Positions 7,759 to 28,814 of a DNA stretch of 64,000 nucleotides are shown one piece after another; the first letter of the stretch is position 1; each line of letters starts with the position of its first letter. The notes under the pieces are model-generated. The model saw only the letters and a list, made by a program, of their open reading frames with translations. It did not search any database and was not told the origin of the DNA. Position numbers and translations under genes: made by a program. The stretch is from Streptomyces sp. NBC_01197 (GTDB lineage: Bacteria > Actinomycetota > Actinomycetes > Streptomycetales > Streptomycetaceae): the NCBI RefSeq assembly GCF_036010505.1, contig NZ_CP108569.1, positions 4,630,001-4,694,000 on the forward strand, written 5' to 3'.

Positions 7759-8286
7759 TCAACCGGGCGGAGGTGACGACCGGGGCGAGGTGGCCGGGGC
7801 GGTGGGCGTCTCCCTCACCGTGCTGGCGGACGTGGCGCCGGACGGGCGGGACGGTGAGGCCGAGCCGGACCCCATGGACGGGCCCGGGCGCTCGCTGCCG
7901 GCGGAGTGGCGGGGGCTCGGCGGCGCGGCGGGGAGCGCGGGAGGGCCGGGCTGGAGCTGCAGCAAGGCCGCCACGACCCCGCTCGCCAGGACGCACACGG
8001 TGCCGGCGGCGGCCGACGCCAGGACCCGGCGCCTGCGTCCGGCGCCCCGCGCCGAGATGTACGCGGCGGGTGCGGGTGCGGCTGTCCGGCCCGCCGACTC
8101 GGCGGCCTGTTTCATCGCACGGGCCAGAGCGTGATCGGACCTGTGAGCCGACCGGTCGATGGACCTGTCACCGGACCCGTCAGCGGACTCGCAGGGGGAC
8201 GCCCAGTCGGATGTGCGGCCGGACGTGCCGTCGGATCCACGGCCGGGCCCGTTCTCGTACGCGGGCTGGTACTCGGTCTCAGACAC
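7759..8286 (-). CDS. Probable membrane partner (anti-sigma-like) of the SigE-type sigma factor
   Basis: 175 residues. The first ~75 residues are hydrophilic and probably cytoplasmic, rich in Ser/Asp/Arg (SDRSIDRSAHRSDHALARAM). One transmembrane helix follows at about residues 87-110 (VLASAAAGTVCVLASGVVAALL), and the Pro/Ser/Gly-rich tail is probably outside. Its ATG lies 8 bases inside the 3' end of the sigma gene, so translation is coupled. By position and topology it may bind and restrain the sigma factor. No zinc-binding HxxxCxxC anti-sigma motif is present, so this is inference. The codon composition is very G+C-rich and the tail is low complexity. Confidence 0.55.
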   Translation of the reverse strand: MSETEYQPAYENGPGRGSDGTSGRTSDWASPCESADGSGDRSIDRSAHRSDHALARAMKQAAESAGRTAAPAPAAYISARGAGRRRRVLASAAAGTVCVLASGVVAALLQLQPGPPALPAAPPSPRHSAGSERPGPSMGSGSASPSRPSGATSASTVRETPTAPATSPRSSPPPG

Positions 8287-8770
8287 CGTGTTCCTCCTCG
8301 GAGAGATGCGGCGCGAGCGAGGCGCGGGCGCGGGAGAGATGGGTCTTGACGGTTCCCGCCGATATCCCCGTCTCGGCGGCCACCTGCTCGACCGTGAGGT
8401 CGCACACGTAGTGCAGGACCGCCACCCGCCGCTGCCGCTCGGTCAGCTGCCGCAGCGCGGACACCATCGCGACGGTGCCCGGATCGGGCTCGGGCACGGT
8501 CGCGGGGCGGGTGTCGCTGTGCCGGCGCCAGGCCTCGGCGCTCCGGCCACGCCTGCGCCAGCGGCTCACCGCGAGCCGCCAGGCCACGGTCCGTATCCAC
8601 GCCTCGGGGCCGGCGTCCCGGTAGAGCGCGGAGCGCCGGCCCCAGGCCCGTACGAATGCCTCCTGCACCACGTCCTGGGCCTCATGGAGGTCGCCGGTCA
8701 TCAGGTAGACCTGTCCCACCAGCTGTTTCGCGGAGTGAGCGTAGAACTCCTCGAACTCCTCGACGGTCAT
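8279..8770 (-). CDS. SigE-family ECF RNA polymerase sigma factor
   Basis: 163 residues. Region 2 is at about residues 10-75 (TGDLHEAQDVVQEAFVRAWGR, then WIRTVAWRLAVSRWRRR). Region 4 is at about 100-150 (LTERQRRVAVLHYVCDLTVEQVAAETGISAGTVKTHLSRAR), including a helix-turn-helix. The length and missing region 3 fit the SigE subgroup of extracytoplasmic-function sigma factors common in Streptomyces. The downstream gene starts before the stop codon of this one, so its product is the likely regulator. Divergent from mfd across a 382-base gap. Target promoters cannot be read from this window. Confidence 0.9.
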   Translation of the reverse strand: MTVEEFEEFYAHSAKQLVGQVYLMTGDLHEAQDVVQEAFVRAWGRRSALYRDAGPEAWIRTVAWRLAVSRWRRRGRSAEAWRRHSDTRPATVPEPDPGTVAMVSALRQLTERQRRVAVLHYVCDLTVEQVAAETGISAGTVKTHLSRARASLAPHLSEEEHGV

Positions 8771-15981: not shown

Positions 15982-17253
15982 TCAGTTCTCTGCCGGCGGC
16001 GCCCAGCGGATCCGGGTCGCGCACAGGGAGACCAGGAGGGCCGCGGCCGCCACGGCGCCCATGCCCCACACCAGGCCGCCGGCGTTCGCGATGAAACCGA
16101 TCACCGCCGGCCCGGCCAGCAGGCCGACGGTCCCCATCGCGGCGACCAGCGCCAGCGCCTCCGGGCCCTGCCGCGCGGCGGCGACATACACGCAGGGCGT
16201 CACGGCCGCCACCCCCAGGCCGACGCAGGCGAATCCGATGAGCGCCGGGACCACGCCGCCGACCAGCAGGGCGAGCGCCAGGCCCACGCCCGCCAGCACG
16301 CTGCCGGTCAGCACGATCCGCCCGTCGCCCCAGCGGGTGCGCCAGCCGTCGGCGAAGACGCGGGCCAGCACCATCATGACCGAGACGACGGCGATGCCCA
16401 GCGGGGCCACCGAAGCCGCCGCCTTGAGCACGTCCTTCATATAGAGCGCCGACCAGTCGTTCATGGCGCCCTCGGTCACGGTGCCGAACGCCATCGCGCA
16501 CCCCATCCACAGCGTCAGACGCGACGGTACGGAGAGTCGTCGCCGGGTCGTCGCCTTCTTCTTCTCCGGCTGCCGGCTCTCCGGCTGCTGGTCCTCCGTC
16601 AGTAGCCCGGTCTGGGCGAACCCGACCAGCAGGAGCAGGATCGCGGCCGCCGTACCGAAGTGGACGGCCAGCGACGTGGTCAGCGTGTTCACGCCGGACG
16701 CCAGCAGCGCCGCGCCCAGCGAACCGGCGCTGAACGTCGCGTGCAGTCTGGCCATGGCCGTACGCCCGTACGTGGTTTCGAGCGCGGCTCCCTGCGCGTT
16801 CATGGCCACGTTCAGACAGCCGACGGCGATTCCGTCGCAGCCCACGATGACCACGGCGACCGGATAGTTCGGCACCTCGGCAAGCGCCAGCAGGAGCAGC
16901 CCGAGGCAGAGCGCGGAGAGCGAGGCGAGGCGGCGCGAGCCCAGGCGCCTCATCAGTACGGTGACGAGCGGGAACGAGACCGCCGCACCCGCACCGCAGG
17001 CCATCAGCAGCAGACCCAGTTCCGCCTCGGTCAGATGGAGCTGTGCCTTGAGGGTGGGCAGCCGCGATGCCCAGGTGCCGTACTGGAAGCCCAGGAAGCA
17101 GAACAGCGCGGCGATCGCCACCTGCGCCCGGCGGAACGGATCGCGCACGCGGATCAGATCGAGCGGCCGCCGCCGGGCGGCCGGACTCGGCTCGGTGGCG
17201 GGGTCGACGTCCGGTTCCATGACCGGTTCGGTTCCGACGTCTTGGTGGGTCAC
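15982..17253 (-). CDS. MFS transporter, last gene of the dioxygenase operon
   Basis: 423 residues with twelve predicted helices and a short N-terminal acidic/Pro-rich extension. The first helix region reads FCFLGFQYGTWASRLPTL, and a loop between helices 2 and 3 carries RRLGSRR. The central cytoplasmic loop has EKKKATTRRR. It resembles sugar/fucose-permease-like actinobacterial MFS proteins. The GTG start lies one base after the stop of the GNAT gene, so co-expression is expected. In this context it is the likely exporter or self-resistance pump for whatever the operon makes; that is inference. Confidence 0.85.
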   Translation of the reverse strand: MTHQDVGTEPVMEPDVDPATEPSPAARRRPLDLIRVRDPFRRAQVAIAALFCFLGFQYGTWASRLPTLKAQLHLTEAELGLLLMACGAGAAVSFPLVTVLMRRLGSRRLASLSALCLGLLLLALAEVPNYPVAVVIVGCDGIAVGCLNVAMNAQGAALETTYGRTAMARLHATFSAGSLGAALLASGVNTLTTSLAVHFGTAAAILLLLVGFAQTGLLTEDQQPESRQPEKKKATTRRRLSVPSRLTLWMGCAMAFGTVTEGAMNDWSALYMKDVLKAAASVAPLGIAVVSVMMVLARVFADGWRTRWGDGRIVLTGSVLAGVGLALALLVGGVVPALIGFACVGLGVAAVTPCVYVAAARQGPEALALVAAMGTVGLLAGPAVIGFIANAGGLVWGMGAVAAAALLVSLCATRIRWAPPAEN

Positions 17254-17254
17254 T

Positions 17255-17752
17255 TCATACCGCCTTGGACATGTACACCGCGTTCGTCCCGTAACTTCCC
17301 GGGAGTGCGATGTCGCGATGGGCCGCGTATCCGTTCGCCGACCAGAAGGTCTCGCTGCCCGCGACGGAGATGAGGGAGATGCGTTCGTGCGTCTTCGACC
17401 TGGCGGCCGTCGTGAGGTGGTGCAGCAGACGCTTCGCCAGCCCTCTGCCGCGCAGGTGTTCGGCGATGACCAGGTCGTGCAGATGCAGATTGGGCGAGCG
17501 GAAGACGGTCTTCTCCGCCCGGTTCAGGTCGGGGTACTGGAACAGCGGGTAGGGCAGGGCCAGCAGATAGCCCGCGATCTGCCGGTCGAGACGCAGCACG
17601 AAGCAGGTGGCGGGCGAGGGGCGGGCCCGGGACTCCAGCGCGGCCCGGCCCTCCGAGAGGGCGTTGTCGGTGTACGTACTGGCTTCCAGCGCCGCGATCG
17701 CGTTCCAGTCGTCGGCGGTGATGTTCCGTATCTGAACGTCCTGGTCCGTCAT
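17255..17752 (-). CDS. GNAT N-acetyltransferase
   Basis: 165 residues. GNAT motif A (acetyl-CoA pyrophosphate loop) is at about residues 95-108 (VIAEHLRGRGLAKRLLHHL), following the core strand NLHLHDLVIAE. The C-terminal ETFWSANGYAAH matches the family's aromatic/Gly segment. ATG overlaps the decarboxylase stop by 4 bases. In this operon it probably acylates an amine, possibly the decarboxylase product, either as a biosynthetic step or for self-protection. The substrate cannot be read from the sequence. Confidence 0.85.
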   Translation of the reverse strand: MTDQDVQIRNITADDWNAIAALEASTYTDNALSEGRAALESRARPSPATCFVLRLDRQIAGYLLALPYPLFQYPDLNRAEKTVFRSPNLHLHDLVIAEHLRGRGLAKRLLHHLTTAARSKTHERISLISVAGSETFWSANGYAAHRDIALPGSYGTNAVYMSKAV

Positions 17753-18996
17753 GGCAGATCCTCCGTGGCAGAACCGGGGGTGGATGTCCCGGACCCGGAC
17801 GGCAGCCCGCGTATCACGGTGTACGGAAGGGGGCTGAAACCGTTGAAGCCCTGCGTCGCGTAACTGGTGGCGTAGGCGCCGGACGAGAGGACCCAGACCG
17901 GGTCCCCCGACGCGACGGCCTCGGGAACCTGGACGAGGCGGTGCTCATGGGCGTAGGCGTCGTCGCTGTCGCAGGTGGGGCCCGCGACCACGGCCGGCAC
18001 CGAGGGCGCTCCCGGGTGGGACGGGAAGACCAGGCGGTACTGGAGCTGGTCCATCTCGTACAGGCCGTTGAACTTTCCGCAGCTCAGATACAGCCAGTGC
18101 TGACGTTCACCGTTCAGCTGCTCCCGCGTGGACAGCCGCGCCACATGGGCCCGGATGGCGCCGTGGTCGGCGACCAGGTGGCGCCCCGGCTCCATGACGA
18201 AGTCCAGCGGGGTGCCCGACACTGCCCGCAGCTGCCGGATACCCTCCCGGATCGCCGCGAAGATCTTGTCCAGCGGCGGATCCAGCGGTCGGCCCCGGCT
18301 GTCGAGATAGCCGAGTGCGGGCAGCCCGCCGCCGAGATTGATGTGGTCGAGGTGGATCCCCCGGCCCCGCAGGGCCGCCAGCACGCCGGCGAGGCTCGCG
18401 AACGCGCTTTCCCAGGCCTCGGCCGTCATCTGCTGGGAGCCGACGTGCACGGAGAGACCGGCAGGTGTCAGCCCCGTGGCCCGGGCCGTCTCCAGCACCC
18501 GTACGGCGTCGGTGCCCGAGCAGCCGAACTTCTTGCTGAGTCCCCACAGCGCACCCTCGCCGCTGGTGGCCAGCCTGCAGAACACCCGCGCGCCGGGGGC
18601 ATGGGCCGCGATGGCCGTCACGTCCTCCACGCTGTCGGTCGCGAAGTCCCGGACGCCGAGCCGGTACGCGTCGCCGATGTTCCGGTCGGACTTGATGGTG
18701 TTGCCGTAGTGGATCCGGCCGGCCGGGACGCCGGTCCTGATGGCCCGCTCGATCTCGTGGGGGCCGGCCGCGTCGAACCCGGCGCCCAGCTCCGCCAGGC
18801 AGGCGAGCACCTCGTCCACCGGGCAGGCCTTCATCGCGAACCGGACGGCGACGTCCGGCAGTTCCCAGGTCAGCGTCTCGTACTGCTGCCGGATTCCGCC
18901 GAGGTCGTAGACGATCCGGTCGTCGGAAGCCGCTGCCAGGGCTTCATAGAGGGGGGTGCTGAGGTGCCCGGTTCTGTTGAGGGGCCTAGTGCTCAT
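17749..18996 (-). CDS. Fold-type III PLP-dependent decarboxylase (ornithine/diaminopimelate decarboxylase type)
   Basis: 415 residues. PLP Lys is at about residue 56 (FAMKACP). HVGSQ, the phosphate-binding GGG (INLGGGLPALG), EPGRHLV and the second-subunit catalytic Cys in PTCDSDD (about 343) are all present. These features fit alanine-racemase-N/ODC-DapDC family enzymes and closely follow the ODC-like WGPTCDxxD pattern. The stand-alone location in a biosynthesis-like operon suggests decarboxylation of a modified amino acid, not polyamine or lysine housekeeping. The ATG lies 11 bases inside the previous gene. The substrate (ornithine, lysine or an hydroxylated derivative) is undetermined. Confidence 0.88.
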   Translation of the reverse strand: MSTRPLNRTGHLSTPLYEALAAASDDRIVYDLGGIRQQYETLTWELPDVAVRFAMKACPVDEVLACLAELGAGFDAAGPHEIERAIRTGVPAGRIHYGNTIKSDRNIGDAYRLGVRDFATDSVEDVTAIAAHAPGARVFCRLATSGEGALWGLSKKFGCSGTDAVRVLETARATGLTPAGLSVHVGSQQMTAEAWESAFASLAGVLAALRGRGIHLDHINLGGGLPALGYLDSRGRPLDPPLDKIFAAIREGIRQLRAVSGTPLDFVMEPGRHLVADHGAIRAHVARLSTREQLNGERQHWLYLSCGKFNGLYEMDQLQYRLVFPSHPGAPSVPAVVAGPTCDSDDAYAHEHRLVQVPEAVASGDPVWVLSSGAYATSYATQGFNGFSPLPYTVIRGLPSGSGTSTPGSATEDLP

Positions 18997-20293
18997 GGAT
19001 GCCTGCTTCCCTGCTCACCCGTATCAGTGGTCCCCAGGCCTGGATCAGCAGCGCGAAATCCTCCATGTCCTGCTGGGCCTCGTTGAGCAGCCGGTCACCG
19101 CGCTCCGCCAGCGCATCGGCGAACTCGGCGTATCTGCCGCCGAGTTTCCGGTAGGAACGGTCGAGGCTGCGCAGCCGCTCCTCGTTCTCCTCCCGGTCCA
19201 GCCAGCTGCTCTCCCGGGCGAGTTCGGCCACTTTGTCCGCGCGCAGCCGCAGCCGGTCGTCGAGCAGCGAGTCGCCGGCCTCCGCCATCCGCTCGTACAC
19301 GGAATTGAAATAGAGCATCGACAGGAAGAACTTCACCAACCGCAGCTGGTACGCCATGAATCCGGCGTCGGTGCGCCGTTCCCCGGTGTAGAAGTTCACG
19401 ATGTGGCGGTTGTGCAGGACGCCGGGCAGTCCGGCGTCGTGGACCAGATGCATCAGGAAGTAGTCGCTGCCGATGGTGTCGGTCGCGGGCGGCAGCGGCA
19501 CGCTCTCGTACACGTCGCGGTGGAAGCTGATGTTGCACATGTCCACCCGCATGGGATCGACCAGGCCGACGGCCGAGTGATCGTGCGTGAAGAGGCCGGT
19601 GCCCGCGCCCTTGAACGCCTCGGCGACCAGCTGTTCCCTGGCCTCCTCCGACCACGTGCGAGGGGCCCACAGGCTGACGACGTCGTGGTAGACGGAGGGG
19701 TCGAGCTGCTGGATCTCGCTGATGTCCACGGACAGTTCGCCCACGAAGGAGCTGCCCACCAAAGACACCGTCCGCTCCGCGTGGGCGGGGTCGAGGTGGG
19801 TGTCGGAGACGCTGTCCACCGCGTCGATCGCGCGCTTCCCGAGCGACACCAGCTCGTGGTGGACGGGGAACAGCGGCACGCCGTTCAGCGTCTGGTAGGT
19901 GCTGTCCGAGTCCCTGCGGTGCAGCGATTCACAGCCGAGCGCGGCAGCGATCAGAAAGGCGCGGTTCGTGCAGGCGCCGTACGAGACCTCGGAAGGCAGC
20001 ATGAGGTCGAGCAGCAGATCGGGCTTGGGCACATCGGCGAGGCTGATCAACCGCCGCAACAGCGAACGCTGTTCGGCTTCGTCCAGGTGGTGCACGATCA
20101 CATGCGGCGTCCCGGTGGCTTCACCGGCGACTTCCGCGTGCTCGGCGAAATCCCGCTCGCCCGACGAGTCCAGGATCAGCAGATGCACGTCGACGTCGAA
20201 GTGAGCTGCGGCGTACTGCGCCTCGGCGCGCATGGCCGAAATCGTCGCGGCGCACGCCCTGTTGGTGGGAAGGGTCAGACAGATTCGGTGCAT
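18986..20293 (-). CDS. Uncharacterised protein (DUF6271-like, possible GT-A-like N-terminus)
   Basis: 435 residues, no signal peptide or membrane segment. The N-terminus MHRICLTLPTNRA looks like the first strand of a Rossmann/GT-A fold, with HLLILDSSGE and a later RRDSDSTYQ that could be a DxD-like metal site. The C-terminal third (from about residue 330) is charged and helical (DREENEERLRSLDRSYRKLGG). From memory it resembles the actinobacterial family DUF6271, which I cannot verify here. The start overlaps the dioxygenase gene by 19 bases, so it is tightly coupled. Its unknown chemistry is the most interesting gap in this operon; glycosyltransferase-like activity is a guess. Confidence 0.6.
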   Translation of the reverse strand: MHRICLTLPTNRACAATISAMRAEAQYAAAHFDVDVHLLILDSSGERDFAEHAEVAGEATGTPHVIVHHLDEAEQRSLLRRLISLADVPKPDLLLDLMLPSEVSYGACTNRAFLIAAALGCESLHRRDSDSTYQTLNGVPLFPVHHELVSLGKRAIDAVDSVSDTHLDPAHAERTVSLVGSSFVGELSVDISEIQQLDPSVYHDVVSLWAPRTWSEEAREQLVAEAFKGAGTGLFTHDHSAVGLVDPMRVDMCNISFHRDVYESVPLPPATDTIGSDYFLMHLVHDAGLPGVLHNRHIVNFYTGERRTDAGFMAYQLRLVKFFLSMLYFNSVYERMAEAGDSLLDDRLRLRADKVAELARESSWLDREENEERLRSLDRSYRKLGGRYAEFADALAERGDRLLNEAQQDMEDFALLIQAWGPLIRVSREAGIHEH

Positions 20294-21339
20294 GCCAGTT
20301 CTCCGGTAAACCGCTCGGCGTTCCGGCCGCCCCAGGATTCGAGTCCCAGGAGCTTCGCGCCGAGGTCGCTCAGTTCGGCGGCGCCGTACCTGAGGGATTC
20401 ATGCCGGTCCGCGTCGCCGACCAGCGTCTTGTTCCAGTCCGGGGTGGAGAGGGTGCGCCAGGACTCGATCCGGGACTTCCGCATCTCCTGGTGGGACTCC
20501 AGCGCGGGCATCATCGAGAGGTACTGGACGGCGCGGACGCCGCTCTCCGAGATGTTGCGTGCCACACCGTGGGCGAGCAGGCCGTTCCAGATCAGCAGAT
20601 CGCCCGCCTTGAGTTCCGGCTGGACGACTGGGAACTCCGCGCGGTCGGTGCCCGGCCTGATCGGGTCCCGGCCGTCGGGCTGCGCGATCCTCCACCGGTC
20701 GAACTGGCGGAACAGCTCGGGCGAGCACTGGAATCCGCCCCGCTCGGGCTCGGTGTCGTTCAGCGCGATGATGCCCTGGACACGCTGGGGCAGCACGCTG
20801 AGCGTGGTGTCGACGTCCCAGTGGAGCTCGATGTCGAACCCCTTGTCCGTGGGCGCGATCAGCGCGCGGTCACGGTTCTTGATGTTGGGCGGGTTCAGGT
20901 TGAGCCGGTCCAGGGTCACCCACAGCTCCTCGCAGTCCCACACGTCGGCGAACGCGTCATGGACGCGCTGCGCCTGGCGGCTGTCCCAGATGAGCTGGTG
21001 GTGGTACGCCTCCACGAAACCGTAGATGTGCAGTTCACGGTCCAGGTCCGACCGGAAATCGCGGTCGGCGTACCAGGTGTCGGGCCGGTCCGGATCGAGA
21101 CCCTGGAAGTCCCAGGTGAAGTCCAGCAGGCGCTGCGCCGCGGCAGGGGGTATCGCCTCTTTCACGACGATGTAGCCGTAGGTCTGCCAGAAGGCGAAGT
21201 CCTCCTCCGACAGCACGCGCAGCGGCTGCGACTTCTTGATGTCCCGCAACGGTGTCTGCGCCAGGTACATCTCCCCGTCCGTACTGAAATAGGGGATGTC
21301 CGATGCGGCTCGATACAGATAGGGGTCAGACGTCGACAT
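20275..21339 (-). CDS. Phytanoyl-CoA-dioxygenase-like Fe(II)/2-oxoglutarate oxygenase
   Basis: 354 residues. The Fe-binding facial triad is visible as HWD (in ELHWDVDT, about residues 172-174) and a distal His (LLAHGVARN, about 256), with a 2-oxoglutarate-binding Arg in RAVQYLSM soon after. The N-terminal segment carries DFAFWQTYGYIVV, typical of phytanoyl-CoA-type (PhyH) oxygenases. It is the first gene of the five-gene minus-strand operon; ATG has GGAG six bases upstream. It probably hydroxylates an amino acid or small metabolite that the downstream decarboxylase and acetyltransferase then use. Substrate unknown. Confidence 0.85.
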   Translation of the reverse strand: MSTSDPYLYRAASDIPYFSTDGEMYLAQTPLRDIKKSQPLRVLSEEDFAFWQTYGYIVVKEAIPPAAAQRLLDFTWDFQGLDPDRPDTWYADRDFRSDLDRELHIYGFVEAYHHQLIWDSRQAQRVHDAFADVWDCEELWVTLDRLNLNPPNIKNRDRALIAPTDKGFDIELHWDVDTTLSVLPQRVQGIIALNDTEPERGGFQCSPELFRQFDRWRIAQPDGRDPIRPGTDRAEFPVVQPELKAGDLLIWNGLLAHGVARNISESGVRAVQYLSMMPALESHQEMRKSRIESWRTLSTPDWNKTLVGDADRHESLRYGAAELSDLGAKLLGLESWGGRNAERFTGELACTESV

Positions 21340-23278: not shown

Positions 23279-23921
23279 GCGTCACGTCAAGTGCCGTGAA
23301 GGTGTGCGCTCGCCCCTGTTCGCCCGGAATGACTGCCCGTCAGTACCGCTCCGTCTGCCCCGAAATGGGGCCGCATGGCTCTGGTGTTCCGGCGCGAGGG
23401 AGGGTGGATTCCGGCGTTGCGGAACTGCGTCGGCAGCTGAACTTGGCTAGTTCTGGCGGGAGTTCATGGATCGACGGGCTCCTGGGCGATTCCCTTCGCC
23501 TCGGCCGCCGGGCGGTACCGGCCATGCTCGATGACCGGCCTGGCCGGGGCGGCGGTCTCGTACGGGTCCGCCGGGGCGTCCGGCAGGGCGGGTCCCGGTG
23601 TACGGAAGGCGCGCTGTTACGGGTCGCGGGGCCCCGGGTCCGGACGGGCTCACGCGGGGCCGGGAAGCGAGCGGCGCGTGAACGGTGAACGGTCACCGAG
23701 GTCCTGCGTGATACAAGACCGGGCGCGACATGCCTCGCCCGGCCTCCGAGTCACTCCGGGAATTCCCGCATGAATGCCTGTGAACGCCATGATCATTTCG
23801 CCGTTCACCATTCAATTGAAGCCTTGAGGACCGGGATCCCTGGCTCCCTTTGCGTGCGTCCGGTTCCTGAGTTTGACTGAGACCGCAAGGAACGAATCCC
23901 CCTATACGGATGGGAAGCGTC
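23279..23921. other. Long intergenic region upstream of the peptide operon
   Basis: About 640 bases without a supportable gene. The part from 23740 to 23921 is less G+C-rich and has two perfect palindromes: CGGGAATTCCCG (23757-23768) and TTCAATTGAA (23811-23820). A 36-codon ORF with two Cys runs from ATG 23770 to 23880; it lacks a good ribosome-binding site and I do not call it a gene. A TTGACT at 23873-23878 is the only -35-like hexamer; no well-spaced -10 is seen. Confidence 0.35.
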
Positions 23922-24110
23922 ATGTACTCCACTGAACCGGTGACCGACCGCCTGGCAACCGACCTCGATGAGGATGTCGAGGCTGCGCTCAACCCGGGCG
24001 AGGCCGAAGGCGTCTTCCGCGACTCGCGTGAATGCGCGAGCCTGGCGCTGATCAGCGGAGGAGGCAGCTTGCTGCTCTCGCCGCCGACTCCGCGCCCGAA
24101 GAGGGCGTAA
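23922..24110 (+). CDS. Small acidic peptide, candidate precursor of a modified peptide
   Basis: 62 residues from ATG 23922 (GGGAAG four bases upstream; an in-frame ATG at 23910 is the alternative). Residues 1-37 are strongly acidic (VTDRLATDLDEDVEAAL, NPGEAEG), like a RiPP leader. From Cys38 the sequence changes to a neutral, hydrophobic, Ser/Gly/Leu-rich stretch (CASLALISGGGSLLL) and a Pro-rich end (SPPTPRPKRA). It is the first gene of a five-gene operon whose next start is only ten bases away. I do not recognise the family. A RiPP-like precursor is an inference from size, charge asymmetry and context; a small regulatory protein is the alternative. Confidence 0.5.
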   Translation: MYSTEPVTDRLATDLDEDVEAALNPGEAEGVFRDSRECASLALISGGGSLLLSPPTPRPKRA

Positions 24111-24120
24111 GCAGGCGCAC

Positions 24121-24807
24121 ATGGACGAGTCAAGTGCGTCCTCCCGCATCGCGGGGGCTGTGCGTGACCTGGCGTCCGAGGTGGTCTTCGCTCTGCAGAG
24201 CGAAGACCACCTCTCCACGGTCTGCGGCGCCGCCGGAATCGGCGAGGACGACAGAACCGGGATCGCCGCGGTCAGGGTGATCGGGGCCGATCTCCTGCTG
24301 CCGAGCCTGCTGTACGGACGTGATCCGCACCCCGGTGACGTGGCGGTGCTCCAGCGTGCCGTGATCGACTTCCCGCCGCGCGCGGGCGCCCCGGCGGCGA
24401 GCACCTGGAGCCACTGGGCGATGGAGTCGGCGCTCGGCACACCGCCGACCGGCGACACGGTGGTGGAACCCGATGCCGCGTGGCTCGAACAGGCCCCCTG
24501 GCAGGCGTTCACCCACCAGCTCTCCGTACTCGCCCCGCTCGCCAGACCCGCTTCCGCCTCGGCGGTCAACCGGGCCGCGAGCCGCCGGCCGGCCGACGTG
24601 GCCCGTGGATTCGTCCGAGCCGTACGGCGCCGCGACTGGCTCCAGGCAGCCGGGGCCGGCCGCTGGCTGGCCACGCTCGACGGGGTGCCCGACACCCTGG
24701 GCCTGGCCGCCGGCCTGGACTTCGTCCAGCTCATGGGCGGTCAGGATCCCCGGGTGGCCCTCCATCTGCGCGCGGCCGGACTGATCAGGTCGGGACAGGC
24801 GCGGTGA
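24121..24807 (+). CDS. Unrecognised protein, second gene of the peptide operon
   Basis: 228 residues, no signal peptide or membrane segment. Visible blocks are AAVRVIGADLLLPSLLYGR, STWSHWAMESALG and, near the C-terminus, VPDTLGLAAGLDFVQLMGG. The composition is Ala/Leu-rich and probably all-helical. ATG at 24121 is ten bases after the peptide stop, with only a weak ribosome-binding site (AGCAGG). The stop overlaps the next gene's GTG (GTGA). I see no catalytic motif. A helical partner or scaffold of the two following proteins is possible but unproven. Confidence 0.6.
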   Translation: MDESSASSRIAGAVRDLASEVVFALQSEDHLSTVCGAAGIGEDDRTGIAAVRVIGADLLLPSLLYGRDPHPGDVAVLQRAVIDFPPRAGAPAASTWSHWAMESALGTPPTGDTVVEPDAAWLEQAPWQAFTHQLSVLAPLARPASASAVNRAASRRPADVARGFVRAVRRRDWLQAAGAGRWLATLDGVPDTLGLAAGLDFVQLMGGQDPRVALHLRAAGLIRSGQAR

Positions 24808-25769
24808 CCGCCGCCCCGGAGGCGCGAACGCAACCACCGGGCACCGGGCTTGTGCACGGTGTCGCGGGCGCCGCCCTGGACTGGGTGCGGGAGAACCGCA
24901 CCGGGTTCGCGCTGCCCGACGACGTCCTGGAACCCCACACCGATGTCAACCGCACCATGAAGCCCCTGGGCGAACTGGCGCAGCTCTGCACCACGGTCCG
25001 CCGCCGTACCCATCCCGACGACCCGCATCACGCGGCGGCTGCCGCTCTCGTACGGTTCGCCTGGGAGCAGGTCCGCGAGGGGGAGCTGCTCCTCGACCTG
25101 GCCCGCAACGAGCCGTTCGCCACGTACCCCTTCGAGATCTACGCGGCCTTCGCGGGTGAAGGCCTGCGACACGAGGGCTTCGAACGCCTCGCCTCCATCG
25201 TTGCCACCACCCGGAGCTGGGCGCTCACCGAGCAGCAGGCCAACCGCGAGCTGGGGCTGCTCAACTCCGAGCGGCGGATCGGCGTTCCCGCGCACACGGC
25301 GGCGGACCCGGTGCTGCACCGCACCTGGCTCGGCGGGCTGCCCGAGCCGTGGACCTTCGAGCGCGCTTCCGGGTACGCCCTGACGCATGTGGTCTTCCAC
25401 CTCACGGACTGGGGCAACGCCCCGCAGCGGATGCCGTACGACGTCGCCGGGTATCTCGGCACCTGGCTGCCGGCGTGGATCGACGGCTGCTTCGAGAACG
25501 GCCAGTGGGACCTGGGGGGCGAGCTGCTCGCCGTCGCCGCGTGTCTGCCTGACCCGCCGCCGGTGGAGCTGGTGGAGACCTGCTGGCCGGTGCTCGCCGC
25601 CGTACAGGACGCCACGGGCGCCGTCCCCGAGACGGGCCCGCCCGATACCGGCGAGACTCCGCGTGAGTTCCTGAACTGCTACCACTCCACGCTGGTCACG
25701 GCCTTCGCGGCCGCCCTGACCCTGGCCCGGAACGGCCTGGTCGGCCCACCGGACGGAGGTGCCGTATGA
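24804..25769 (+). CDS. Unrecognised helical protein, paralogue 1 (DUF6895-like?)
   Basis: 321 residues from GTG 24804, overlapping the previous stop by 4 bases. It aligns over its length with the next gene product: LDWVRENRTGF, KPLGELAQL, YPFEIYAAF, the central THVVFHLTDWG, then GYLGTWLPAWIDG, WDLGGELLAVAACLP, an AVQDATGAVPETG block and YHSTLVTAFAAAL near the end. The helical repeats plus a Q..x-G-A-x-P block recall alpha/alpha-toroid proteins such as terpene-cyclase-like folds; this is only a resemblance. The conserved His, Asp and Trp of the central motif could form an active or metal site. From memory it may belong to DUF6895; not verified. Cytoplasmic. Confidence 0.65.
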   Translation: MTAAPEARTQPPGTGLVHGVAGAALDWVRENRTGFALPDDVLEPHTDVNRTMKPLGELAQLCTTVRRRTHPDDPHHAAAAALVRFAWEQVREGELLLDLARNEPFATYPFEIYAAFAGEGLRHEGFERLASIVATTRSWALTEQQANRELGLLNSERRIGVPAHTAADPVLHRTWLGGLPEPWTFERASGYALTHVVFHLTDWGNAPQRMPYDVAGYLGTWLPAWIDGCFENGQWDLGGELLAVAACLPDPPPVELVETCWPVLAAVQDATGAVPETGPPDTGETPREFLNCYHSTLVTAFAAALTLARNGLVGPPDGGAV

Positions 25770-26773
25770 ACGACAGCGAGCAGACAGCAGACGCGGCAGC
25801 CAGTACCGGCACCGGCACCGGCACCGGCACCGGCACAGGCACAGGCACCGCCACCGGCATCCGGCGGATCCACGACGTCGGATCACGCGCCCTGGAGTGG
25901 CTGTACGCCCACCGCGACGGCTTCCGGCTGGAGGACGACCCGGACCCGGAGGCCGGGGCGCTGGACCGCTTCAAGCCGCTCGGCGAGCTGGCCCTCATCG
26001 GGAAGGTCATCTTCCGCGAGGGCGTCGCGGGCTCGAAGCAGGCCGCGACCGCGCAGAAGCTGCTGGATCACGCCTGGCACGAACTGCTGGCGTCCGGAGC
26101 CAGGCTCGCCGAGGGCCAGACCCATGAACCGCTGTCGCCGGTGCCCTTCGAGGTCTACGTACCGTTCAAGGAGCTCGGCTACAGCAATCCGCGGATCGAG
26201 GCCGCGGCCCGGCTCAACCACCGGCTCGTCAGTCGGCAGGTGCTGGAAGTGCTGCCGGTCCGCCGACTCGGGCTCTCCGCCATGGAACGCCGCTTCGGTC
26301 TCGCGCCCGGCCTGCCGGAGGACGAGGCCGCCGCCCGCACCTGGCTCGCGCACCGCCCGGAGCCGTGGACGGTGGAGGGCCACATCGGCTACGACATCAC
26401 GCACACGGTGTTCCATCTGACCGACTGGGGTGAGAACCCGTCCGGTCTGCCCCCGGCCATCGCCGACTATCTGGCCATCTGGCTGCCGGTCTGGCTGGAC
26501 GACTGGCTCGCCCTCGGACGGTGGGACCTGCTCGGCGAACTGCTCGTCGTGGACGCGTGCCTGCCGGAACCGACGCTGGACCCGGCGGCCTGGCGCGGCT
26601 TCGCGGCCGCCCAGCAGCCCGACGGCGCGATGCCCGTGCGGGGCCCGATGCCCGAGGGCGACGAGGAGCACGTCTTCGATCTCGTCTACCACCCGACCCT
26701 GGTGGCCGCGTTCGCCTCCGCCCTTGCGGTCTCCCGCGCCATGGCCGACCTGACCGCACCGGCCCCTTCATGA
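25766..26773 (+). CDS. Unrecognised helical protein, paralogue 2 (DUF6895-like?)
   Basis: 335 residues. ATG at 25766 (GGAGG upstream) overlaps the previous stop by ATGA. After an N-terminal Thr-Gly repeat (about residues 14-30, encoded by a hexanucleotide array) it follows the same plan as the preceding protein: LEWLYAHRDGF, KPLGELALI, VPFEVYVPF, THTVFHLTDWG, DYLAIWLPVWLDD, WDLLGELLVVDACLP, QQPDGAMPVRG and YHPTLVAAFASAL. Tandem paralogues that both keep the THxVFHLTDWG block suggest a heterodimer or two successive reactions on the same substrate. No known catalytic family was identified. Confidence 0.65.
   Translation: MNDSEQTADAAASTGTGTGTGTGTGTGTATGIRRIHDVGSRALEWLYAHRDGFRLEDDPDPEAGALDRFKPLGELALIGKVIFREGVAGSKQAATAQKLLDHAWHELLASGARLAEGQTHEPLSPVPFEVYVPFKELGYSNPRIEAAARLNHRLVSRQVLEVLPVRRLGLSAMERRFGLAPGLPEDEAAARTWLAHRPEPWTVEGHIGYDITHTVFHLTDWGENPSGLPPAIADYLAIWLPVWLDDWLALGRWDLLGELLVVDACLPEPTLDPAAWRGFAAAQQPDGAMPVRGPMPEGDEEHVFDLVYHPTLVAAFASALAVSRAMADLTAPAPS
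25805..25858 (+). repeat. In-frame hexanucleotide array (ACCGGC)n
   Basis: Nine consecutive six-base units: five perfect ACCGGC, then variants ACAGGC, ACAGGC, ACCGCC and ACCGGC. They encode a Thr-Gly linker at the N-terminus of the second paralogue. The unit length keeps frame, so copy-number change would alter linker length without disrupting the gene. Confidence 0.85.
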
Positions 26774-27975
26774 CGAGGAAGGCACCGGGAACGGGACCCG
26801 AGTCGGGACCGGAGACGGCGGCGGCGGTGGCGGAAGAGACGGGGACGGAACAGATGTCGACACGCACGCGGACGCGGACCGGGACCGCCGATCGCCTGGC
26901 CGCCGCCGCGCAGGCCATCGACGCCCCGGGCCTCGTCATCGCGGTGAGCCACCGCGGCCACCGCACGGTCCACTGCGGGGGCGGCGCCCCTCCGCCGGTC
27001 CTCCCGCGCGACCAGCAGCGGTACGAGATCGGCTCGGCGTCGAAGACGTTCACCGGCCTCCTCCTCGCGGAACTCGTGGGCACCGGCCGCCTCTCGTACG
27101 ACGACGTGGCCGCCCGCCACTTGGCGCCGGGCCGGACGCCGGACACCGCCCCCAGGAACCCGGCGACCCTGCGGCACCTGATCACGCACACCGCCGGGCT
27201 GCCCGCCCTGCCGGCCGACTTCTACCCGCAGGCGGTACGGCGCTGGTCGACCGACCCGTACCGGGGCTACCCGGCCGAACGCGTCGTAGCCGCCTACCTC
27301 CGCACCCGGCCACGCCACCGCCCGGGCACCCGCTGGCACTACTCCAACTTCGGCGCTTCGGTCCTGGGCCACACTCTCGCCGCCGCGACGGCCACCCCAT
27401 GGGAGGAACTGATCACCCAGCAGGTCCTGACCCCGCTCGGCCTGGCCGAGACCCGCCTGCACCCGGAGGGCACAGGCGGACCGGGCACAGACAGGCCGGG
27501 CACAGACAGGCCGGGCACAGGCGGACCGGGCGCGGGCGGACCGAGCACGGACCGGCCGGGCGCCGACGCCACGGGGTACCGCCCGAACGGCATGACTCCC
27601 GTACCGGGTCTGGCCATGGGCGGCTTCCAGCCCGCAGGCGCCGTACGAGCGACCCCCGGCGACCTCCTGACCTACCTGGAAGCACACCTGGACCCGGCCG
27701 GCACCCCGCTGGAGACCGCCCTCCACACCATCCGCCGCCCCGTGCTCCGCCGTGGAACGGGCCACCGTCACACCCACACCCTCGCCTGGTTCCAACACCC
27801 CTCACCGCAGGGCCCGTTGTACTTCCACGCGGGCGCCACCACCGGCCAGCAGGCATTCATCGGCTTCCGGCCCGCCACACACACGGCCGTGGTGGCCGTG
27901 GCCACCCGCCGTATCCGCCTCCGGGACACGTTCATCGCGACGGCGTACGCACTGCTCAGCGAGGAATCCGGCTGA
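26770..27975 (+). CDS. Beta-lactamase-fold serine hydrolase (class C / DD-peptidase type)
   Basis: 401 residues from ATG 26770, overlapping the previous stop by 4 bases (an internal ATG at 26854 is an alternative). Ser-x-x-Lys is SASK at about residues 89-92. The second motif YSN is near 191, and the third motif is HAG (YFHAGATTGQ, about 353) in place of KTG, as in many esterase/peptidase members. LRHLITHTAGLP is also family-typical. A Pro/Gly/Thr/Asp repeat (PGTDRPGTDRP and similar, bases 27476-27560) interrupts the domain. No clear signal peptide, so a cytoplasmic peptidase or esterase acting on the operon product is plausible, for example leader trimming or amide/ester chemistry. Confidence 0.85.
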   Translation: MTRKAPGTGPESGPETAAAVAEETGTEQMSTRTRTRTGTADRLAAAAQAIDAPGLVIAVSHRGHRTVHCGGGAPPPVLPRDQQRYEIGSASKTFTGLLLAELVGTGRLSYDDVAARHLAPGRTPDTAPRNPATLRHLITHTAGLPALPADFYPQAVRRWSTDPYRGYPAERVVAAYLRTRPRHRPGTRWHYSNFGASVLGHTLAAATATPWEELITQQVLTPLGLAETRLHPEGTGGPGTDRPGTDRPGTGGPGAGGPSTDRPGADATGYRPNGMTPVPGLAMGGFQPAGAVRATPGDLLTYLEAHLDPAGTPLETALHTIRRPVLRRGTGHRHTHTLAWFQHPSPQGPLYFHAGATTGQQAFIGFRPATHTAVVAVATRRIRLRDTFIATAYALLSEESG

Positions 27976-28259: not shown

Positions 28260-28814
28260 ATGTCCACAGGCACTTTCACAGCACATGGTCCGGACAGGAC
28301 TGGATGGCACACTGTGTCAGGTCGCCCGCCGGCTGACCCTGCGGTGACTGTCGAACCGATTTCCCGCGGGCGATGGATGCTCGCGGCTCAGGGGTACGTC
28401 CCCGTCTCGGTGCACCAGACATCCTCCGAGGTCCATCTCGTGTTCGCGCCTTCCCCGGAACCGGAGGCCTTTCCCGGGTACATGGCTGAAAGAGTCGAAT
28501 CGGCCGCGCCCCCGGAGCCCCTTACGGACCCCATACAAGTCGACCACGGTGCCCGCACGGTGCACGTCGCGGGGCGTCAACTCGAACTGCCGAAGCTGGA
28601 GTTCGACCTGTTGGCATATTTCATTTCCCGGCCGCTCCACGTCCATACGCGCCATCGGCTCATCGCTGCGATCTGGCCCGATTCAGCAGGCAGTGAGCGC
28701 ACGGTGGATGTGCATGTCGCCCGGCTGCGCCGCCGCCTCGGCCCGCAGTACCGAAAGGCCATCGCGACAGTGGTCGGCGTGGGCTACAAGTACGTTCCGG
28801 CCCCCGCGGGGTAA
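28260..28814 (+). CDS. Orphan OmpR/PhoB-type winged-helix regulator
   Basis: 184 residues. The C-terminal ~95 residues are a Trans_reg_C winged helix (IQVDHGARTVHVAGRQLELP, LEFDLLAYFISRP, RTVDVHVARLRRRLG, VVGVGYKYVP). The N-terminal ~90 residues are not a receiver domain: no conserved Asp phosphorylation pocket is visible. It therefore acts without a classical histidine kinase. It lies 284 bases downstream of the serine hydrolase in the same direction, and the gap has a TGCAGCTGCA palindrome (27978-27987). It could control the peptide operon. Convergent with the methyltransferase, 15 bases away. Ribosome-binding site weak (GGGAA). Confidence 0.8.
   Translation: MSTGTFTAHGPDRTGWHTVSGRPPADPAVTVEPISRGRWMLAAQGYVPVSVHQTSSEVHLVFAPSPEPEAFPGYMAERVESAAPPEPLTDPIQVDHGARTVHVAGRQLELPKLEFDLLAYFISRPLHVHTRHRLIAAIWPDSAGSERTVDVHVARLRRRLGPQYRKAIATVVGVGYKYVPAPAG

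Follow-up and report, generated by a model that had tools for sequence, protein, structure and literature searches.

Positions 23922-27975 on the forward strand of a stretch of the Streptomyces sp. NBC_01197 genome (assembly GCF_036010505.1, contig NZ_CP108569.1, positions 4,630,001 to 4,694,000; the whole 64,000-nucleotide stretch is referred to as the window) hold five genes that form a real and conserved cassette of the type associated with ribosomally synthesized and post-translationally modified peptides (RiPPs). In order, the open reading frames (ORFs) encode a short precursor-like peptide (type 1), a helical partner of 228 amino acids (aa), two paralogous proteins of the family DUF6895 (D1 and D2) and an S12 serine hydrolase (Table 1). 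We read them as a self-contained RiPP-type cassette in which the DUF6895 proteins would make D-residues and the S12 enzyme would cut or join the chain there, and we give this reading a probability of roughly one half. An earlier interpretation of the same DNA (the sequence-only reading) had proposed a peptide-modification operon, and the ORF positions, the 10-base gap between the peptide gene and the 228-aa gene and the 4-base overlaps at the remaining three junctions were all confirmed in the sequence. The cassette shows the RiPP hallmark of a short precursor gene linked to dedicated genes, which presumably act in its maturation. No description of this five-gene cassette was found in a literature search.

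The gene order was strongly conserved. Among 40 loci chosen by a DUF6895 match, all 22 with tandem DUF6895 genes had the full order of peptide, 228-aa homologue, D1, D2 and hydrolase, including one (L039) in which the D2 match was split in two pieces. The small gene, whose absence from this position in other genomes had been named in the sequence-only reading as evidence against a peptide operon, was thus present at every tandem locus. Two further sets of 20 loci were chosen by a peptide match. The order was complete at all 20 loci of the first, whose peptides are the more divergent, and at 16 loci of the second. The same strain may occur in both the named and the unnamed collections, and the independence of the loci, those chosen by a DUF6895 match included, is therefore uncertain. 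The hydrolase match at L118 and the D2 match at L137 were each split in two pieces. The four exceptions in the second set were L131, L132, L142 and L146. L132 was a chance match to the peptide profile, and L142 was missing most of the 228-aa gene and D1. At L131 (7095-7782), a decayed cassette, the peptide is intact and the start of the 228-aa gene runs, as judged by eye, into the apparent end of the hydrolase gene. At L146 (1449-5362), two type-1 peptides lie 3.8 kb apart without a cassette, flanking a transposase-like gene; the same genome has a further peptide and DUF6895 on another contig. Genes flanking the cassette were shared only in small groups (at most 8 of 41 loci), so the cassette is maintained or moves as one block in many genomic locations.

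Genome-wide co-occurrence gave the same picture. DUF6895 was detected in 170 of 392 Streptomyces genomes (168 above the Pfam cut-off), a type-1 peptide profile match in 114 and the type-2 peptide described below in 38, counts that may be low because only the best first-look candidates were scored per genome (at most 6 for DUF6895, 16 for type 1 and 16 for type 2). DUF6895 was present in 112 of the 114 type-1 genomes (Fisher p 2e-51) and in all 38 type-2 genomes (p 1e-15), with p values uncorrected for relatedness; together with the 22 tandem loci, this association supports the proposed peptide-modification operon. The two type-1 genomes without DUF6895 were those of L131 (G702) and of the chance match L132 (G710, peptide match E 5e-5). 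Conversely, a recognised precursor accompanied DUF6895 in 148 of the 170 genomes. A phylum-wide sample had DUF6895 above the cut-off in 6 of 396 genomes including the window's own, all of them Streptomyces. The family is not confined to the genus or the phylum, as it matched five plasmid records, two from Streptomyces and one each from Kitasatospora, Cupriavidus and Pseudalkalibacillus. The Cupriavidus copy is unannotated, and a gene finder returned no gene there.

The peptide frame is under selection. The median pairwise ratio of nonsynonymous to synonymous substitution rates (dN/dS) was 0.52, and 482 of the 533 usable pairs of equal length had values below 1; an out-of-frame control on the same stretch, shifted by one base, gave a median of 1.40 and values below 1 in 71 of 515 pairs; pairs were compared without gaps and are not independent of each other. 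This speaks strongly against a reading in which the peptide ORF arose by chance or is a relic and the other four genes act on a small molecule, the S12 enzyme being an esterase. Small molecules or sugars are frequent substrates of S12 proteins and alpha/alpha barrels, and the top matches of the barrel model described below include sugar enzymes, but given the frame comparison, the peptide at all 22 tandem loci and its co-occurrence with DUF6895 we consider such a scenario very improbable.

The first half of the window's peptide is acidic, as had been described, with a net charge of -8. The second half was thought to be neutral; it carries +3, owing to the cationic tail PPTPRPKRA. Charge and hydropathy measurements on 63 type-1 peptides, from which L132, L129 and L142 were excluded as they were from the motif-anchored alignment, revealed an acidic part (median -6, range -9 to -2), an RDSREC-like motif, then a Leu/Ala/Gly hydrophobic stretch (median 14 residues, hydropathy 2.1) and a basic tail (+2 to +5). 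The tail motif [SA]P[PS][TAP]PRPK occurred in 63 of 65 type-1 peptides. At the two loci without it (L129:1462-1629 and L142:1211-1375) the frame continues into the next gene, and the peptide and its helical partner are read as a single ORF, which is either an error or a real fusion. For L038, L112 and L146 the start positions, which give more than 75 aa, were assigned by script and are uncertain. Two tandem precursors were found within one cassette at L042 and L145.

A conserved leader followed by a variable core had been predicted, with the product arising from the C-terminal ~25 residues. The pattern of a conserved leader and variable core was not borne out. Both a 16-row alignment and the motif-anchored alignment placed the most conserved part at the C-terminal LLLSPPTPRPK, with variation in the N-terminal part and in a short Gly/Ala hinge; motif columns are conserved by construction in the latter alignment, and the dN/dS comparison is the unbiased test. 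As the C terminus is conserved and the N-terminal part and hinge vary, the core need not lie in the last 25 residues. The type-1 peptides depart from the classical leader and core picture; the tail may be a follower recognised by the enzymes or a part of the product.

Several precursor families precede the same enzymes. A shorter cassette with one DUF6895 gene was found at 11 of the 40 DUF6895-chosen loci, and in nine of these a different peptide (type 2) lies 5' of the 228-aa homologue; it combines an acidic EPEAPxSDAP motif with a Leu-rich stretch and a tail resembling SPKEPKEP. L064 is cut by its 3.5-kb contig, and a type-2 peptide is encoded elsewhere in its genome (G050), on a different contig. 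Divergent type-2 versions occur at L160-L163 and on the Kitasatospora plasmid, where the peptide occurs with DUF6895, a partner of 248 aa and a serine hydrolase for which the annotation shows just a short gene. A third precursor type, with LSSNPKKEEPIED or LLSANPRRNEPIED and likewise in cassettes with one DUF6895 gene, is present at L151 and L153. In our reading of these sequences, which for charge and hydropathy covered 11 of the 14 type-2 peptides seen, the types appear to share one design of an acidic part, a hydrophobic stretch and a Pro-containing charged tail. Five type-2 matches were listed with one internal TGA; in the one inspected (G043, the genome of L046) this TGA is the peptide's own stop codon.

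The two middle proteins had correctly been recognised as paralogues (40% identity; a genome search with D1 finds these two only). They are not the wholly unknown proteins they were taken for, as both score far above the cut-off of PF21836 (DUF6895), which is 23.8 bits, with 314 and 279.6 bits. One member of this family is called a lasso-peptide epimerase in the title of Shi et al. (ACS Catal. 2026, 10.1021/acscatal.5c08590, as it appears in the reference list of PMC13352647), and epimerisation, as worded in that title, is the only DUF6895 function we found in print. D1 copies group together on the same side of a branch that has weak support. Residues conserved in D2, in a comparison from which the L052 row was dropped, were His213, Asp220, Asp254, Glu258 and His309; two His are conserved and one Asp is invariant, and the His/Asp set is common to both paralogues. 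The predicted structure of D2 is an (alpha/alpha)6 barrel that resembles both sugar 2-epimerases and terpene cyclases, with His213 on long helix 8 and His309 on long helix 12. The histidines of the AGE superfamily lie on helices 8 and 12. An in-frame GGCACC/GGCACA repeat at 25805-25858 encodes a Thr-Gly run at the D2 N terminus, and the model has low confidence over residues 1 to 25.

DUF6895 was also found in other genomic settings. At L049, a radical SAM gene lies between two DUF6895 genes, and Pfam identifies another radical SAM gene and a haem-oxygenase-like gene nearby; a glycosyltransferase match was weak and below the cut-off, and MFS and S9-peptidase-like genes were recognised by eye. 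The same genes are present at L050-L052, and seven more genomes share the spacing only. This arrangement is possibly another RiPP pathway using DUF6895. At L053 (8034-12513) a DUF6895 protein with a C-terminal extension is encoded near a LanC-like gene, with ABC transporter genes recognised by eye, which makes a lanthipeptide pathway with a DUF6895 enzyme possible. At L054, DUF6895 lies between an 84-aa ORF (8232-8486) and a PNPOx gene. The plasmid of Pseudalkalibacillus (Bacillaceae; L166:6362-8281) has an 86-aa ORF directly 5' of DUF6895, followed by a 215-aa protein; by eye, this 86-aa ORF resembles the 84-aa ORF of L054. The DUF6895 proteins at L157 and L158 look partial, and L152 was assigned to none of these settings.

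The last gene encodes a beta-lactamase-fold hydrolase, as had been anticipated, with the PF00144 domain covering residues 46-391 of 401. The S12 catalytic motifs SxxK, YxN (here YSN) and HxG were present in all 34 cassette hydrolases compared. The 34 sequences do not include L057|9, L058|0 and WIN|18 (not cassette hydrolases), the second hydrolase L072|10 and a duplicate window row. None of the 34 had a clearly hydrophobic N terminus (mean hydropathy over 17 residues of at most 1.7), and the hydrolase is probably cytoplasmic. Relatives in the PDB were IS11, alkaline D-peptidase, beta-lactamases, D-Ala-D-Ala carboxypeptidase, an S12 peptidase, ClbP and 6ksu (E 2.9e-9), and the best matches include alkaline D-peptidase and D-Ala-D-Ala carboxypeptidase. 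The hydrolase differs from class C beta-lactamases in its score (76.7 bits versus a class C equivalog cut-off of 415), the lack of an obvious signal peptide and the location in a peptide operon, and we do not take it for a resistance gene. The class of SurE (6KSU) joins an N-terminal L-residue to a C-terminal D-residue (PMC11735501). As this class handles D-residues and 6ksu was matched, we propose by analogy that the hydrolase might act where DUF6895 has placed a D-residue.

The AlphaFold2 model of the 228-aa protein has a mean predicted local distance difference test (pLDDT) score of 90.2, and 17 columns were invariant across 31 partner sequences. Structure searches with the model returned no clear relative, and no sequence relation to DUF6895 was detected. 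Searches of Pfam, NCBIfam, PADLOC and PHROGs, at the thresholds applied, matched neither this protein nor the peptide, and the PADLOC anti-phage defence models matched none of the five cassette proteins. The 228-aa protein may bind the precursor, a guess based on the fact that its gene adjoins the peptide gene.

Taken together, a pathway can be proposed. Its precursor would consist of a leader formed by the acidic N-terminal part, a hydrophobic stretch rich in Leu and a Pro-rich tail of positive charge, and the helical protein would probably hold or present it. The DUF6895 pair would then probably invert at least one residue of the hydrophobic stretch from L to D, the alpha-carbon proton being taken and returned on the other face via His213 and His309 with Asp220 and Asp254. 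This step is proposed because of the lasso-peptide case named in the title of Shi et al. and, by analogy, the barrel sugar epimerases. Finally, the S12 hydrolase could attack the chain at the D-residue, so that the mature peptide would be released, trimmed or cyclised. The analysis shows the conservation of the cassette, selection on the precursor frame, the enzyme families with their catalytic motifs and predicted fold, and the occurrence of different precursor families before the same enzymes; epimerisation and D-dependent processing we infer.

Several observations weigh against this scheme. Terpene cyclases, glycoside hydrolases (GH105) and lyases score as well as the 2-epimerases with the barrel model, Foldseek returned no match for it at E <= 0.001, and the designation of D1 and D2 as putative peptide epimerases draws on one paper title and on analogy of fold and residues. 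Ordinary beta-lactamases make up most of the PDB relatives of the hydrolase, and that it would need a D-residue is proposed purely by analogy. The cassette includes no transporter and no usual RiPP peptidase. No peptide was found in the single-DUF6895 cassette at L057, Cys is absent from the peptides of L149 and L038, and the classical leader and core pattern is lacking in the type-1 peptides. Long DUF6895 proteins at L154, L155, L156 and L059 had no match to a cassette partner nearby, which speaks against an exclusive role of the family in RiPP pathways.

The strongest alternative retains the RiPP-type cassette and holds that DUF6895 catalyses another modification (dehydration, cyclisation or ester chemistry), with the S12 protein as an ordinary protease that removes the leader or follower. 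Many reactions are catalysed by (alpha/alpha)6 barrels, as the equal scores of terpene cyclases, GH105 hydrolases and lyases illustrate, two old and distinct paralogues could catalyse two different reactions, and the epimerase named in print belongs, by its title, to a lasso pathway with another substrate. However, epimerisation is the sole published function found for this family, and the His/Asp set is the same in both paralogues, which suits one type of proton transfer. We therefore regard a non-epimerase role as unlikely, yet as the rival to be taken most seriously.

A second alternative departs from RiPPs altogether: the small protein would act as it is, on membranes or in regulation, and the helical proteins and the hydrolase would be its partners or its processing or immunity proteins. 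A hydrophobic stretch followed by a cationic tail would fit such a peptide, as would the lack of a transporter, and a most conserved C terminus is unusual for an antimicrobial core. In contrast, three different precursor families occupy the same position before the same enzymes, and DUF6895 is found with LanC-like, radical SAM and, judging by the title of Shi et al., lasso enzymes; both observations point to peptide modification, and the alternative appears improbable.

Among known systems, the modifying family has a precedent in the lasso-peptide epimerase of Shi et al., which by its title shares the family name of D1 and D2 and acts on a ribosomal peptide. That enzyme belongs to a lasso pathway, whereas the present cassette combines a pair of paralogues with a helical partner and an S12 hydrolase, and the lasso B2 transglutaminase-like protease and Asn-synthetase-like cyclase were absent from the five proteins and the 12 flanking genes scanned. 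MslH, the epimerase of the lasso peptide MS-271, inverts a residue of a ribosomal peptide by acid/base chemistry with two His/Asp pairs (PMC10406935), and the same mechanism is proposed for DUF6895 by analogy; however, MslH has a calcineurin-like fold with Ca(II), while DUF6895 is predicted to be an all-helical barrel. AGE superfamily enzymes (cellobiose 2-epimerase and GlcNAc 2-epimerase) are a good structural match, with an (alpha/alpha)6 barrel and two acid/base His (PMC5726027), but their substrate differs, and PF07221 (AGE) matched neither D1 nor D2 by sequence at E 0.001. Penicillin-binding-protein (PBP)-type thioesterases such as SurE and D-stereospecific S12 peptidases have an S12-like catalytic domain and handle D-residues at the reactive site (PMC11735501). 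Compared with these thioesterases, the cassette hydrolase has no C-terminal lipocalin domain, PF00144 being its only domain, and the cassette has no nonribosomal peptide synthetase. With class C beta-lactamases the hydrolase shares the PF00144 domain and the three motifs. As the sequence-only reading had noted, the five proteins include no class-defining enzyme of known RiPPs (LanM or other lanthipeptide enzymes, YcaO, radical SAM, ATP-grasp); the Pfam scan gives DUF6895 twice and Beta-lactamase.

A bolder extension is offered tentatively, and we think it less probable than the scheme above. The cassettes might represent an undescribed RiPP class that is widespread in Streptomyces, fed by at least three precursor families, in which a radical-free (alpha/alpha)6-barrel epimerase pair installs D-residues that signal release or macrocyclisation by a cytoplasmic S12 enzyme; as part of the same tentative proposal, such a class might be a ribosomal counterpart of the PBP-type thioesterase off-loading of nonribosomal synthesis.

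D-residues are rare in ribosomal peptides and are valued for the protease resistance that they confer. A recognised precursor together with DUF6895 was present in 148 of the 392 sampled Streptomyces genomes, over a third, and the cassette has no marker enzyme of a usual RiPP class. If the proposed scheme is true, the cassette would constitute an overlooked source of ribosomal peptides with D-residues, and peptide engineering would gain a barrel-type peptide epimerase and perhaps also a serine peptidase or cyclase that depends on D-residues. The five genes are short enough for joint testing in E. coli.

Table 1. Features of the cassette in the window (positions are those of the window)
Feature	Position	Strand	Evidence or remark
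Ribosome-binding-site-like sequence GGATGGGA	23908..23915	+	Lies 5' of the peptide gene; putative function
Precursor-like peptide, type 1, 62 aa	23922..24110	+	Positional conservation, profile matches, frame under selection
Putative leader: acidic N-terminal part, residues 1-37, net charge -8, FRDSRE motif at its end	23922..24032	+	
Putative core: hydrophobic Cys/Leu/Ser/Gly stretch CASLALISGGGSLLLS, residues 38-53	24033..24080	+	
Cationic Pro-rich tail PPTPRPKRA, residues 54-62: possible follower or product part	24081..24107	+	
All-helical partner, 228 aa, without Pfam family	24121..24807	+	Possible peptide-binding or scaffold protein
DUF6895 paralogue D1, 321 aa: putative peptide epimerase	24804..25769	+	PF21836, E 1.2e-93
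DUF6895 paralogue D2, 335 aa: putative peptide epimerase	25766..26773	+	PF21836, E 3.8e-83; (alpha/alpha)6 barrel model
S12 (class C beta-lactamase-like) serine hydrolase, 401 aa: putative D-residue-dependent peptidase or cyclase	26770..27975	+	PF00144, E 2.6e-52

The sequence AAGGATGGGAAGCGTC was found 5' of the peptide at loci L033, L065 and L066. Within the window, a run of genes on the minus strand (15982-21339) encodes an MFS transporter, a GNAT acetyltransferase, a pyridoxal-phosphate-dependent ornithine/diaminopimelate/arginine decarboxylase, a DUF6271 protein and a PhyH dioxygenase, and looks like a separate small biosynthetic cluster. On the other side of the cassette, positions 28260-28814 encode a small protein that matches a Trans_reg_C DNA-binding domain but no receiver domain; of the relatives seen, only the three closest have this gene next to the cassette.

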